A program made the position numbers and the translations under genes. Below are positions 52,451 through 56,020 of a DNA stretch of 64,000 nt, piece after piece. The first letter of the stretch is position 1, and each line of letters starts with the position of its first letter. The notes beneath the pieces are model-generated. The model made no database searches. It saw nothing but the letters and a program-made list of their open reading frames with translations, and was not told where the DNA came from. Origin of the DNA: Micromonospora cathayae. GTDB taxonomy: Bacteria; Actinomycetota; Actinomycetes; Mycobacteriales; Micromonosporaceae. The stretch is taken from positions 4,617,001-4,681,000 of the forward strand of contig NZ_CP118615.1 of assembly GCF_028993575.1 (NCBI RefSeq), read 5' to 3'.

Positions 52451-52975
52451 TCACCAGTGGCGTACGGCCAACAGGACGAACGCGACGACCAGAATGGTGG
52501 AGCCGGTGACGGTGATCGCGCGGAGCCGGACCCGCAGGTCGTCGTCCCAGCGGTCACCGTCTCCGCTGGCCCGGCGCGCCAGCGGGGTGAGGGCCCGGCC
52601 GATGCCGAAGCCGACCCCGGCCAGCACCGCCACGCTCAGCCGTTGACCGGCCAGGAACACCGCCACGGCCAGCACGTACGGGGCGCTCGACGAGACGTAG
52701 GTACGCACTCCCGTGCCCAGTTCGAAGCCGAACCGGGCCGCCCCGCGCCGGACGTCACGCTGGAGCACGTCCTGCGGGATCTGCCGGGCGTTCTGCGGCA
52801 GCCGGACCCGGACCAGACCGAGTTCCCGGAGCAGCCCCAGCACGGCCACCGCCACGATGGCCGCGTACCGCCACGGCGTGGGCAGCGGCGCGGACAGCCC
52901 GGAGAACACCCCGAGCACCAGCCCGCTGAGCAGGCCACCGGCGATCAGGCCGGCGCTGAACAGGGCGAGCAGCAC
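52451..52975 (-). CDS. Membrane protein, end of the MauE/MauD-like operon
   Basis: A 174-residue protein with predicted helices near 1-28, 35-50, 95-125 and 152-172, and a polar loop (RVRLPQNARQIPQDVLQRD) between the second and third. No family recognised. GTG at 52975 follows GAGAACGGCAGG. It is the last of six minus-strand genes that otherwise overlap, 60 bases after a 60-residue membrane gene; together they could be one protein split by a frameshift. It may anchor or export the cysteine-rich protein encoded upstream; inferred from position only. Confidence 0.65.
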   Translation of the reverse strand: MLLALFSAGLIAGGLLSGLVLGVFSGLSAPLPTPWRYAAIVAVAVLGLLRELGLVRVRLPQNARQIPQDVLQRDVRRGAARFGFELGTGVRTYVSSSAPYVLAVAVFLAGQRLSVAVLAGVGFGIGRALTPLARRASGDGDRWDDDLRVRLRAITVTGSTILVVAFVLLAVRHW

Positions 52976-53035
52976 ACCCTGCCGTTCTCGATCCCGCCAC
53001 CCGGGCGAGGCCAGCGCGTACGCGCTGTTGCGGGT

Positions 53036-53218
53036 TCAAACCGAGCCGGAGAGCGTGTATCCGGTGAGCGCCCCGATCAGCGCCCAGCTGAGCGGATGGC
53101 CGTACCCGGCCGCGACGAGCGCCCCGGCGGTCAGCGGCAGCACCGGGGCGAACGGGTCGGCGACCCACCGCCGGACGTCCCGGCCGGGGCGTACCGGGCC
53201 GGGACCCCGGTGGGTCAT
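53036..53218 (-). CDS. Small membrane protein (60 residues)
   Basis: The ATG at 53218 overlaps the stop of the cysteine-rich gene (ATGA). A basic, Pro/Gly-rich start is followed by VLPLTAGALVAAGYGHPLSW and ALIGALTGYTLSG, one or two membrane segments. The reading stops just before a 60-base gap to the next membrane gene. Either a true small subunit or the N-terminal piece of a frameshifted membrane protein. Confidence 0.6.
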   Translation of the reverse strand: MTHRGPGPVRPGRDVRRWVADPFAPVLPLTAGALVAAGYGHPLSWALIGALTGYTLSGSV

Positions 53219-54147
53219 ACCGCGCCGCCGGTGAGGGTCCGCCAGGTGTTCACCCCGGCGATGCCGTCGGCGGTCAGCCCGTTCTGCCGCTGGAAGTCCC
53301 GGACCGCGCTGTCGGTCAAACCGCCGAACACCCCGTCGACCACCAGCCCGTAGGCGTGCCGGTTGAGCTGCCGCTGGAGGCCCGAGACGGCCTGACCGGT
53401 GTTGCCGGACCGGACCGACACCACCAGCGACGGCCAGGTGGTGGCGTCGACGACCCCGGTGACCGTGAGTCCGGCCGCCGTCTGGAAGCTGCGCACCTTC
53501 GCTTCGGTGTCGCTGCCGAAGACACCGTCGATCCCGGTCGCGTGGCCCCGGGCGGTCAGCAGGTGCTGCACGGTGTGGACGTTGACCCCGGTGTTGCCCC
53601 GCCGGACGGCGGGCCAGCTCACCGTGCCCAGGCAGCCGCACTGGGTGTTCCACCGGCAGATCGACCGTACCCAGCCGGCGCTGGTCTTGCGGTACCCGTC
53701 GTGGCAGCGGCGTTCCACCGAGCACGCGCACGCCCCGCACGGCCCCTGGTAGTGCCACAACCAGCCGTCGTACGTGCCGGAGTAGCACTCGTTGGGCCGC
53801 AGGATCCAGGTGGTCCCGTCGTTCTTGTGGTACCCGAGGTACGTCCCGCTGGTGTTGCAGGCGTCGGCGAAGATCGTGCTCGGCCCGCAGCCCGGCGAGC
53901 AGTTGTGGTCACTGGCGTAACTCGGACACGAGCCGTAGATGGTGTACCCGTCGGCGTACGCCCGGCGGGCCGCCGGGAAGACGCTGAGCGCGGCCATGCC
54001 GACCGCGGTGCCGGCCTGGATCAGGGCGCGCCGGGACAGCGTCCAGGCGGCCCGGGTGCGCCCGGCCCGCACCGGCGTACGCCGGACGGCGGCGCCGGTT
54101 CCCGGGTCGGTGCCGCGCAGCGCGGGTACGGCGTCGAGAGTGGTCAT
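53215..54147 (-). CDS. Tat-exported 12-cysteine protein with two peptidoglycan-binding domains
   Basis: A 310-residue protein with an unusually long leader ending in a Tat signal (SRRALIQAGTAVGMAALSVF, 38-57). Residues 70-175 hold exactly 12 Cys (74, 83, 87, 97, 121, 137, 140, 142, 148, 164, 170, 172), including CGACAC. Count, long Tat leader and MauE/MauD partners recall the methylamine dehydrogenase small subunit, which needs six disulfides. I see no Trp where the first tryptophylquinone residue should be, so it is probably not that enzyme. Two PG_binding_1 repeats (about 177-243 and 244-308; GIDGVFGSDTEAKVRSFQ, VVDGVFGGLTDSAVRDFQ) would hold it at the cell wall. It overlaps both neighbours by four bases. 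True role unknown. Confidence 0.82.
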   Translation of the reverse strand: MTTLDAVPALRGTDPGTGAAVRRTPVRAGRTRAAWTLSRRALIQAGTAVGMAALSVFPAARRAYADGYTIYGSCPSYASDHNCSPGCGPSTIFADACNTSGTYLGYHKNDGTTWILRPNECYSGTYDGWLWHYQGPCGACACSVERRCHDGYRKTSAGWVRSICRWNTQCGCLGTVSWPAVRRGNTGVNVHTVQHLLTARGHATGIDGVFGSDTEAKVRSFQTAAGLTVTGVVDATTWPSLVVSVRSGNTGQAVSGLQRQLNRHAYGLVVDGVFGGLTDSAVRDFQRQNGLTADGIAGVNTWRTLTGGAV

Positions 54148-54752
54148 GCCCGGCCTCCCGGCTGGTGGGTGGCGACCGCCGGTCCGGTGGCCCCGGACGG
54201 GTCGGGGTCGAACCTGGCTGCGGACGGGGCGGGTCCGAGTCCGGCCCCGGACGGGGCGGGGTCGAACCGGTCGAGGAGGCGGCGCAGGGCCGTGCGGGAG
54301 CCGACCGGCTCGGCGTGCCGCACCTGCCCGGCCCGGTCGACCACGGTGGCGAACGGGGTGGCGAGCGCGTCGTACCGGTCGAACAGCTCGGCCTGCCCGG
54401 CGAGCACCGGGACGGGCAGGCCGGCCGCCCGCGCCGGCGCGACGTCGCGGTAGAGAACCCGGAACTCCAGCCCGGCCCGGTCGACGTGGTCGGCCAACTC
54501 GGCGAGCACCTCGGCGCAGGTACCGCAGTCGGGGTCCAGGAAGAGCAGCACCAGCGGACCGCGCGGTGCCGCCGGGGCCAGCCGGGCGAAGTCGGGGGCC
54601 GGGGTGCCCGGCGGCAGGCCGACCGACTCCGGGTGCCGCTGCGCCAGCCCGCTCGACAGGGCGTGCACCTGGCGCACCAGGCCGGACACCACGAGGGCCA
54701 GCAGCAGGATCGCCACCCAGCTCAGGATCAGCGCGCTGGTCTGGAAGCTCAT
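54144..54752 (-). CDS. MauD-like membrane-anchored thioredoxin-fold protein
   Basis: A 202-residue protein with one N-terminal membrane helix (8-25), then a thioredoxin/TlpA-like domain whose redox motif is DPDCGTCAEV (Cys76, Cys79). In methylamine dehydrogenase biogenesis MauD acts in disulfide formation of the cysteine-rich subunit; here the downstream gene makes a 12-Cys exported protein, its likely client. The C-terminal 40 residues are a Pro/Gly/Asp-rich tail. The start overlaps the MauE-like stop (ATGA), and its stop overlaps the client's start. Confidence 0.87.
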   Translation of the reverse strand: MSFQTSALILSWVAILLLALVVSGLVRQVHALSSGLAQRHPESVGLPPGTPAPDFARLAPAAPRGPLVLLFLDPDCGTCAEVLAELADHVDRAGLEFRVLYRDVAPARAAGLPVPVLAGQAELFDRYDALATPFATVVDRAGQVRHAEPVGSRTALRRLLDRFDPAPSGAGLGPAPSAARFDPDPSGATGPAVATHQPGGRA

Positions 54753-55306
54753 CCGGACAGGTCTCCTCGTGCCGGGCGGACGGGCCGGGGGTGGTACATG
54801 GCGGCCGGTAGCTGCCACAGTCCGACGGTGAACGTGGCGGCGGCCAGCAGGACGACGGCGAGGTCGGCGGCGAGCCGGCCCCAGCCGAGCACCGAACCGG
54901 ACAGCACCGCGCCGAGCAGGGCCAGGCCGGACAGCACCGCCGCCCGCGCCACCACCCAGCCGCTCATCGGCAGTTCCCGCCGGGAGCAGCCGCACGGGCC
55001 GGTACGACCGGTGGACAGCACGTGCCGGCCGTAGCCGGCGTACAGGCCGAGGAGTCCGGCGGCGGCGACGCCGACGGCGATCCGCAGGGCCCGGCCGTCG
55101 TCGCCGCGCAGCGCCACCACCCCGGCCCCGGCGAGCAGCAGCTCGGCCGTGACGACCAGACCGGCGACGGCGGCGGGCGCCGGGAGTACCCGGTGCGCGG
55201 CCAGGGCCCGGGTCAGCGCGGCCGGCCGGGTCAGGTGCCCGACCCCGGTGACCAGCAGGGTGGCCACCACGGTGTACGCCGCGACGCTGCCCAGGAGGAC
55301 GCCCAC
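54749..55306 (-). CDS. MauE/DoxX-like redox membrane protein
   Basis: A 185-residue membrane protein with about five helices and a conserved GPCGCSRRELP motif facing the exterior loop, as in MauE. It would pass electrons to or from the MauD-like thioredoxin protein encoded next. GTG at 55306 begins six bases after the stop of the 55313 gene. Part of the six-gene overlapping operon 56020-52451. Confidence 0.87.
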   Translation of the reverse strand: MGVLLGSVAAYTVVATLLVTGVGHLTRPAALTRALAAHRVLPAPAAVAGLVVTAELLLAGAGVVALRGDDGRALRIAVGVAAAGLLGLYAGYGRHVLSTGRTGPCGCSRRELPMSGWVVARAAVLSGLALLGAVLSGSVLGWGRLAADLAVVLLAAATFTVGLWQLPAAMYHPRPVRPARGDLSG

Positions 55307-55312
55307 CGTGGC

Positions 55313-56020
55313 CTACCCGGCGGTCCGGACGTCGAGCCGCTCCACCAGGGTGGGCACCTGTTCCGGGTCGGTGTCGGCGAGCGGGACCAGGCTGAGCCAG
55401 GTGTCCGTGGTGGCCAGCACGAAGTAGGGCCGACCGTCGGACAGGGCGTCCCGGTAGAGGTCGCCGGCCCGGGTCCGCAGGCCCCGCCACGACGGCAGCT
55501 GCTTGGCGCGCTGCGCGGTGAGCGGGGTCATCTCCAGCAGGCCGAGGCCGGGGACCTCCTTGAGCACGGTGGCCGGTGCGGCGAACACCGCGCCGCCCTT
55601 GGCGACCGGCAGCAGGGTCAGCCCGTCGTCGTGCTCCTCGACGCGCAGGGAGCGCAGCACCCCGAGCAGGTGCCCGGTCGACGCGCCGTACAGCTCGGTG
55701 AAGAAGGAGTGCCGCCGTCCCCGCCAGACCGCGACGAGCCGGTCCTCGGTGAGCCGGATCCGCGGGTCGTGCGGTCGGGTCCGCGCGGTCAGCAGCGTGC
55801 CGCCCTGGTAGCTGAGTTCCTCGTCGAACCGGTCGACGCCGAGCGCCCGGACCACGTCGTCGGCGAGCCCGGTCGGGCCGGTGGTGAACTCGTGCAGCCG
55901 ACCGGCGATCGTCACGTCGGCGACGGAGGTGGCCGGCGCGCGCAGGTCCAGCTCACCGTCGAGCAGGTAGCGGCGTCCGTCGACCGCCCGATGTGCCACC
56001 GGTACCGCCGTGGTCGTCAT
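55313..56020 (-). CDS. Unrecognised protein, first gene of the MauE/MauD-like operon
   Basis: A 235-residue protein, no signal peptide or membrane segment, and no family I can name. The N-terminal half has beta-rich segments (RRYLLDGELDLRAP, VTIAGRLHEFTTG, RIRLTEDRLVAVWRG); the C-terminal half includes LLPVAKGGAVFAAP and YFVLATTDTWLSLVPLAD. Start ATG at 56020 has GGAGG eight bases upstream. It leads the operon and is probably a cytoplasmic partner in making or exporting the cysteine-rich protein. An in-frame extension to 56074 is less likely. Confidence 0.7.
   Translation of the reverse strand: MTTTAVPVAHRAVDGRRYLLDGELDLRAPATSVADVTIAGRLHEFTTGPTGLADDVVRALGVDRFDEELSYQGGTLLTARTRPHDPRIRLTEDRLVAVWRGRRHSFFTELYGASTGHLLGVLRSLRVEEHDDGLTLLPVAKGGAVFAAPATVLKEVPGLGLLEMTPLTAQRAKQLPSWRGLRTRAGDLYRDALSDGRPYFVLATTDTWLSLVPLADTDPEQVPTLVERLDVRTAG

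Follow-up and report, generated by a model that had tools for sequence, protein, structure and literature searches.

The mau cluster of Paracoccus denitrificans, with the gene order mauF-mauB-mauE-mauD-mauA, includes two genes, mauE and mauD, whose products act in maturation of the small subunit of methylamine dehydrogenase (available part of PMC7794033). The nearest published sighting that we found of such genes in another setting is a group of decRiPPter clusters in which mauE, and in one family also mauD, lies beside the gene for a Cys-rich precursor (same part of PMC7794033). Here we describe a related operon on the minus strand at 52451..56020 of a 64,000-nucleotide stretch (the window: contig NZ_CP118615.1, positions 4,617,001 to 4,681,000) from the 7.2-Mb, single-contig genome of Micromonospora cathayae. 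From sequence, this operon very probably unites the Mau maturation set, namely MauF in a selenocysteine form, MauE and MauD, with a soluble protein encoded by its first gene and a Cys-rich client exported by the twin-arginine translocation (Tat) route. We consider it highly likely that the operon is a selenium-dependent disulfide maturation system of Mau type, in which the last gene encodes a single MauF-homologous membrane protein and an in-frame UGA is read as selenocysteine.

The last gene (52451..53218, minus strand) would specify a putative MauF-like selenoprotein of 255 residues, including a selenocysteine (Sec) proposed at residue 61 for one in-frame UGA codon (53036..53038). Listing of open reading frames (ORFs) breaks it there into two pieces, g5 (53036..53218) and g6 (52451..52975), and the initial annotation took these for two separate membrane proteins at the end of a series of six minus-strand genes, most of them overlapping by 4 bases. 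All six ORFs are present, with 4-base overlaps at three junctions (54749/54752, 54144/54147 and 53215/53218), but the last two are one frame interrupted by UGA. The junction codon is UGA in 91 of the 91 operons that can be compared, a set composed of 79 of 80 core loci (the best 80 of 86 candidates confirmed in a single scan of named genomes), 11 diverged copies and the window. In 90 of these the frame runs to the end of g6 without a further stop; the sole exception, locus L062, is open past the junction and has a frame shift farther downstream, probably an assembly error. Asn at +3 and Ser at +4 after the UGA are found in 91/91 operons, and the Ser is written with three codons (AGC in 81, TCG in 6, TCA in 4), so that the fixed residue under varying codons indicates conservation of protein just past the UGA; the protein is conserved before the codon as well. 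The two pieces share a frame (frame 0) in 79 of the 80 core loci, and the junction of g4 and g5 is spread over three frames (57, 11 and 12 loci). AlphaFold2 models the joined chain as one unit (predicted local distance difference test, pLDDT, 87; predicted template modelling score, pTM, 0.83), with a helix that starts at residue 60.

A profile of the joined protein matches a profile of three MauF proteins in hhalign with a probability of 96.8% (E 2.5e-10, score 73.8) over 187 columns, which extend to either side of the UGA; the best of 40 shuffled controls scored 19.2 and the reversed control 18.8. BLASTP also links the joined protein to MauF (E 5e-4, 31% over 88 amino acids). In the hhalign alignment the UGA residue stands opposite the Cys of the MauF motif SPCG; residue 61, like MauF Cys79, is located at the end of the second hydrophobic segment. 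We infer from these sequences that selenium is incorporated at the position of the SPCG Cys, at the end of that segment. A Cys form was found at L134:5775-6638 in the actinobacterial genome G109, a MauF-like protein whose own SPCG aligns with that of MauF; this genome has no SelA match and a selenocysteine tRNA (tRNA-Sec) match of only 47.4 bits. The MauF-like family is probably wider, the L134 protein included. Since MauA (PF02975) has no match over the cut-off in the source genome, the joined protein is classed as a MauF homologue and not as a member of a mau cluster.

Downstream of the UGA, at +27 to +43, lies a hairpin (52993..53009, minus strand; loop CGGGU in the window) that resembles a bacterial selenocysteine insertion sequence (bSECIS). 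The bSECIS model given in the available part of PMC13188914 has a loop of 3–9 nucleotides, a stem of 4–16 base pairs, a G in the first two loop positions and a distance of 16–37 nucleotides from the UGA, and the hairpin fits it in loop, stem and spacing, the energy limit not being applied. Across 72 distinct sequences, 96% of its pair cells are paired, versus 35%–58% with slid partners. The loop is most often GGU at +34 to +36 (GGU at +34 in 51 of 91), and 88 of the 91 operons pass a hairpin scan with a stem of at least 6, loops of up to 14 nucleotides being allowed and no energy limit set. The region past the UGA is also more stable than synonymous resamples (mean z −0.76, versus 0.05 at a control site). 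Another hairpin (+9 to +24) was dropped as evidence, having 81% of its cells paired and breaking in the diverged loci.

The machinery for selenocysteine accompanies the operon. The source genome has tRNA-Sec, SelB and SelA and, about 310 kb away from the operon, an FdhA gene that contains an in-frame UGA. The region G000:C1:4972000-4990000 (L161), where selA, selB and tRNA-Sec adjoin a gene for formate dehydrogenase whose frame contains a UGA (motif RI-U-HSATV), served as a positive control. We surveyed 80 genomes for tRNA-Sec: 41 with the operon (a match to client or g6), 38 without a match, and G109. At a threshold of 66 bits, set after a gap between 66 and 51 had been seen, tRNA-Sec is present in 40 of the 41 operon genomes versus 25 of the 38 without a match (Fisher p 1.9e-4, relatedness not corrected), of which 19 were screened with the client only and may hold diverged operons; at the Rfam cut-off of 47 bits, 68 of the 80 genomes pass. 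Genes for selenium use are also close by: of 90 loci, 29 include sel genes within the stretch that was fetched (selD in 28, selA in 23, selB in 19), and tRNA-Sec lies within 25 of 91 loci. In several Streptomyces loci selD directly precedes gene 1, and in L024 it ends 65 bases before the gene 1 start on the same strand. FdhA, as represented by TIGR01553 alone among formate dehydrogenase and other selenoprotein models (E 1e-80), was sought in 27 operon genomes; 15 gave no match, and SelA is found in 15/15 of these.

The initial annotation had recognized in this operon a Mau-type disulfide pathway placed beside a Cys-rich exported protein and outside amine dehydrogenase, and the matches to MauE and MauD bear this out; the presence of a MauF homologue makes the pathway fuller than was then seen. 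The MauE-family membrane protein (54749..55306, minus strand), with a CGC motif, matches Pfam PF07291 at 53.8 bits (cut-off 27) and the MauE of mau clusters in hhalign at 98.5% (E 1.7e-15). Two further MauE-family genes above the Pfam cut-off lie elsewhere in the genome (G000:C1:2720112-2720510 and 4537649-4538041). The MauD-like membrane-anchored thioredoxin (54144..54752, minus strand) has the CGTC motif first reported for it, its family aligns with mau MauD at an hhalign probability of 99.2 (E 1.3e-19), and both Cys of the CxxC are present in 29 of 29 aligned sequences. Gene 1 (55313..56020, minus strand) encodes a conserved protein of 235 amino acids that matches no known family and has no similarity to MauJ. 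Pfam scans of the gene 1 and g6 alignments gave stray weak matches only, and sequence searches of PDB with profiles of the client, gene 1, g6 and the joined protein gave only the PG-binding domains and stray weak matches.

A survey of co-occurrence, proposed with the initial annotation, finds the six frames in the same order and on the same strand in 74 of the 80 core loci, more than chance would give. A contig end cuts the operon in L038, L043, L049, L057 and L066, and the last frame was not found in L010. Hosts of the core loci include Micromonospora, Stackebrandtia, Streptomyces, Actinophytocola, Actinomadura, Actinoallomurus and Rhizohabitans. Distribution is patchy, with the client in 15 of 151 genomes of the genus and 6 of 394 of the class (source genome counted). 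The g6 profile matches more of the class genomes than the client does (18 of 394); three of these matches are weak (E 2.5e-4 to 7.5e-4), and G109 carries the distant Cys-bearing relative. Eight other genomes positive for g6 and negative for the client each have a g6-like protein and, upstream of it, a short ORF that ends in the same C-terminal motif; one or more Cys-rich proteins that carry WxW and an RR leader are also present in each. MauD-like and gene-1-like proteins accompany most of these diverged operons; near L127, L128 (plus strand) and L133 no MauE was detected, so the full set is not shown at these three. As read from their sequences, the diverged operons combine machinery of a similar kind with different clients, which have WxW in common. 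The genomes G183 (L128), G043 (L124, L125) and G151 (L126, L127) each contain the UGA gene in two diverged copies, and in G043 and G151 each copy has its own client. Directly downstream of the UGA gene in L127 and L128 is a DGxCGxC-type protein, which we take to be thiol-oxidoreductase-like, and upstream of another diverged operon is a regulator gene (L129:9031-9918), presumably of the SARP/AfsR kind.

The client of the window (53215..54147, minus strand) carries a twin-arginine leader and a 12-Cys domain (53611..53952, minus strand) followed by two PG_binding_1 repeats, and its nearest homologues are from Micromonospora. Ten of its Cys are common with the Actinomadura type, and ten are invariant in a 49-row client alignment. 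An extra pair falls late in the domain in the Micromonospora/Streptomyces type and near VCxxCC in the Actinomadura type. Among 173 database members taken from two lists (the best 120 of 233 and the best 120 of 338 matches), 158 have 12 Cys, 14 have 10 and one has 11, and the late pair is present or absent jointly in 172 of the 173 listed; Cys are thus gained and lost in pairs, as is expected of disulfides. In the nine diverged clients, which come from 9 of the 11 diverged copies, the number of Cys is 6 or 8, and the client profile matches them in hhalign at 92% (E 5e-7). The core of the family is 6 Cys, with 8, 10 or 12 across lineages. WxW (residues 129 and 131 in the window) is invariant in 173/173 listed domains and in the nine diverged clients. 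The exported 12-Cys protein with wall-binding domains that was originally noted is an accurate description of the window copy, but 12 is one member of a 6-8-10-12 series, and PG_binding_1 repeats are absent from 6 of 6 scanned members of the Actinomadura/Actinoallomurus/Rhizohabitans type, the repeats being assigned by domain matches to one sub-branch of the client family.

Several observations weigh against a MauF-like selenoprotein. UGA is the commonest stop of the operon genes (g1 71/75, g2 77/78, g3 77/78, g4 67/80, g6 54/80), and frame 2 prevails almost without exception at the overlapping junctions g2-g3 and g3-g4; for these reasons an invariant UGA is weak on its own, UGA and frame together would not decide, and it is conservation past the UGA that carries weight. 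The hairpin alone is likewise weak evidence, since a fitting hairpin with a stem of at least 5 also occurs in 35–77 of 91 control windows. The BLASTP match to MauF lies wholly past the UGA (residues 131–217), and UGA and Cys are paired in a stretch of one hhalign alignment where confidence is moderate. No close Cys-bearing homologue of the joined protein was found in a database search spanning the UGA, and the Cys/Sec pair is therefore one between distant relatives; this search of a 5.8-billion-protein set, which needs shared five-residue words, scored 0 of 161 candidates at E 1, so that neither an annotated protein nor a close Cys form was seen to span the codon. Foldseek places CcdA (5vkv) first among PDB ranks for the joined model, a match that is not significant (E 0.39, template modelling score 0.30), and VIA-align gave middling transporter matches, CcdA not being among the rows listed. 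Finally, the operon genome G461 (87% complete, 630 contigs) has a tRNA-Sec of only 47.2 bits and no real SelA, through either incomplete assembly or trait decay; it is a draft Micromonospora genome, and the UGA was read in its operon (L014). One alternative is two separate genes, with g5 stopping at the UGA and g6 restarting downstream by translational coupling. In its favour, two ORFs appear in the ORF listing, most stops in these genomes are UGA, an in-frame start codon at +7 would permit restart in 46 of the 91 loci, and an in-frame ATG, GTG or TTG lies within 11 codons past the UGA in 48. However, 43 of the 91 have no start within 11 codons and 38 none within 20, and protein is conserved at codons +3 and +4, before the position (+7) where a restart would usually fall. 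With the shared frame 0, the alignment with MauF across both sides of the UGA and the single confident model of the joined chain added to this, two genes seem very improbable. Readthrough of the UGA by a near-cognate tRNA or by suppression, and not as selenocysteine, would be compatible with G461, where tRNA-Sec and SelA are not clear, and with the fact that Sec is assigned to this codon from sequence. It strikes us as no more credible than two genes, given strong tRNA-Sec in all but one of the operon genomes surveyed, SelA in every tested one without an FdhA match, the sel genes near a third of the loci, the UGA aligned to the MauF Cys, and the bSECIS-like hairpin.

The identity of the client invites two further alternatives to a distinct family of exported Cys-rich proteins. 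The initial annotation saw in it the small-subunit scaffold of methylamine dehydrogenase, reused on the cell wall. The operon order mauE-mauD-client indeed equals mauE-mauD-mauA, as large subunit-mauE-mauD-light chain is the order in 8 of the nine amine dehydrogenase regions that we fetched for comparison, and both client and MauA have RR leaders and many Cys, 12 in the window client. Yet the client profile, set against eight MauA or light-chain sequences in hhalign, has a probability of 0.26% and a score of 12.5, at the level of 60 shuffles with Cys columns fixed (median 12.2, maximum 20.4). No PF02975 match over the cut-off appears in the window client, the source genome or the client members scanned, and the diverged clients have 6 or 8 Cys only. 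We therefore reject the client as such a small subunit at the level of sequence profiles, and regard the scaffold idea as improbable overall. For the Trp pair of tryptophan tryptophylquinone, client and MauA gave no reliable alignment. The AlphaFold2 model of the 12-Cys domain is moderate (pLDDT 72), and Foldseek and VIA-align found nothing significant with it, methylamine dehydrogenase not being among the rows listed, which excludes nothing. Among the ORFs near the operon no large-subunit gene was noticed, no profile search having been aimed at one. The client might instead be a secreted peptide resembling a bacteriocin or a ribosomally synthesized and post-translationally modified peptide (RiPP), as decRiPPter suggested for mauE/mauD clusters; in the available part of PMC7794033 such clusters, with precursors of at least 8 Cys, are described in three Streptomyces, and clients here differ strongly between diverged operons. 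Against this, the clients have about 160–340 amino acids and Tat-like leaders, their domain is highly conserved within types, and outside the operon no single neighbour (neighbours unnamed) turns up in more than 8 of the other 23 loci in the comparison. We think a RiPP-like client unlikely, if less so than the reused scaffold.

For the selenium-dependent Mau-type system, we propose that the putative MauF-like selenoprotein and MauE, with its CGC motif, would form a transmembrane electron relay to MauD, and that this membrane-anchored CxxC thioredoxin would reshuffle disulfides of the exported client until it reaches the correct set of 3 to 6. CcdA and DsbD form reducing or isomerising relays for other clients; by analogy, we lean slightly towards a relay that acts here in the same direction. 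The gene 1 protein may keep hold of the client, or of the client's leader, until it is exported. In this model we infer how electrons flow, how disulfides pair and what the client finally does, along with selenium incorporation. The WxW of a client matured by Mau proteins could carry a tryptophan-derived cofactor.

If the model is correct, it adds a family of membrane-embedded selenoproteins, one that ORF finding splits in two; it extends the Mau maturation set beyond amine dehydrogenase; and it provides a selenium-dependent route to disulfide-rich secreted proteins. A MauF-type protein is not in Table 1 of PMC13188914, a 2026 review of 119 families or subfamilies, within the part of that source available, and the families credited there to Haft and Tolstoy 2025 (selenoprotein neighbourhoods) fall within the same table. 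NCBIfam release 20 yields no selenoprotein model, and stray weak matches only, for the window protein, MauF and the L134 and L125 proteins, and a full-text literature search found no prior report linking MauF with selenocysteine. The deep-Sep method may miss selenoproteins that have no Cys homologues (available part of the deep-Sep paper). Actinobacteria with orphan SelD, and 'Sec users without known selenoproteins', are described in the available part of PMC5029168, and the putative MauF-like selenoprotein may bear on both. Since the 15 tested operon genomes without an FdhA match do have SelA and tRNA-Sec, one may speculate, with rather less than even confidence, that a selenium-dependent maturase serves a superfamily of Tat-exported proteins (6–12 Cys, WxW) in aerobic actinobacteria and is chiefly, or even solely, why many of them retain selenocysteine. 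This would give a testable reason for Sec machinery in actinobacteria without an FdhA match.

The operon has partial counterparts in several known systems. With the mau cluster it shares homologues of MauF, MauE and MauD and the order of mauE, mauD and client; it differs in having UGA for the SPCG Cys of MauF, in its gene 1, and in that a MauA homologue was not detected in the source genome. The decRiPPter clusters share a mauE, in one family with mauD, next to a gene for a Cys-rich product, whereas UGA, MauF and selenium are not mentioned in the available part of PMC7794033, a comparison made by description only. The joined protein resembles CcdA/DsbD in being a small membrane protein of helices and in having a putative redox residue where a helix begins, and CcdA 5vkv is its top Foldseek rank; unlike them, it has no Pfam match to that family, and the structural match falls short of significance. 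With known bacterial selenoproteins it has in common the in-frame UGA, the bSECIS-like hairpin and distant homologues that carry Cys.

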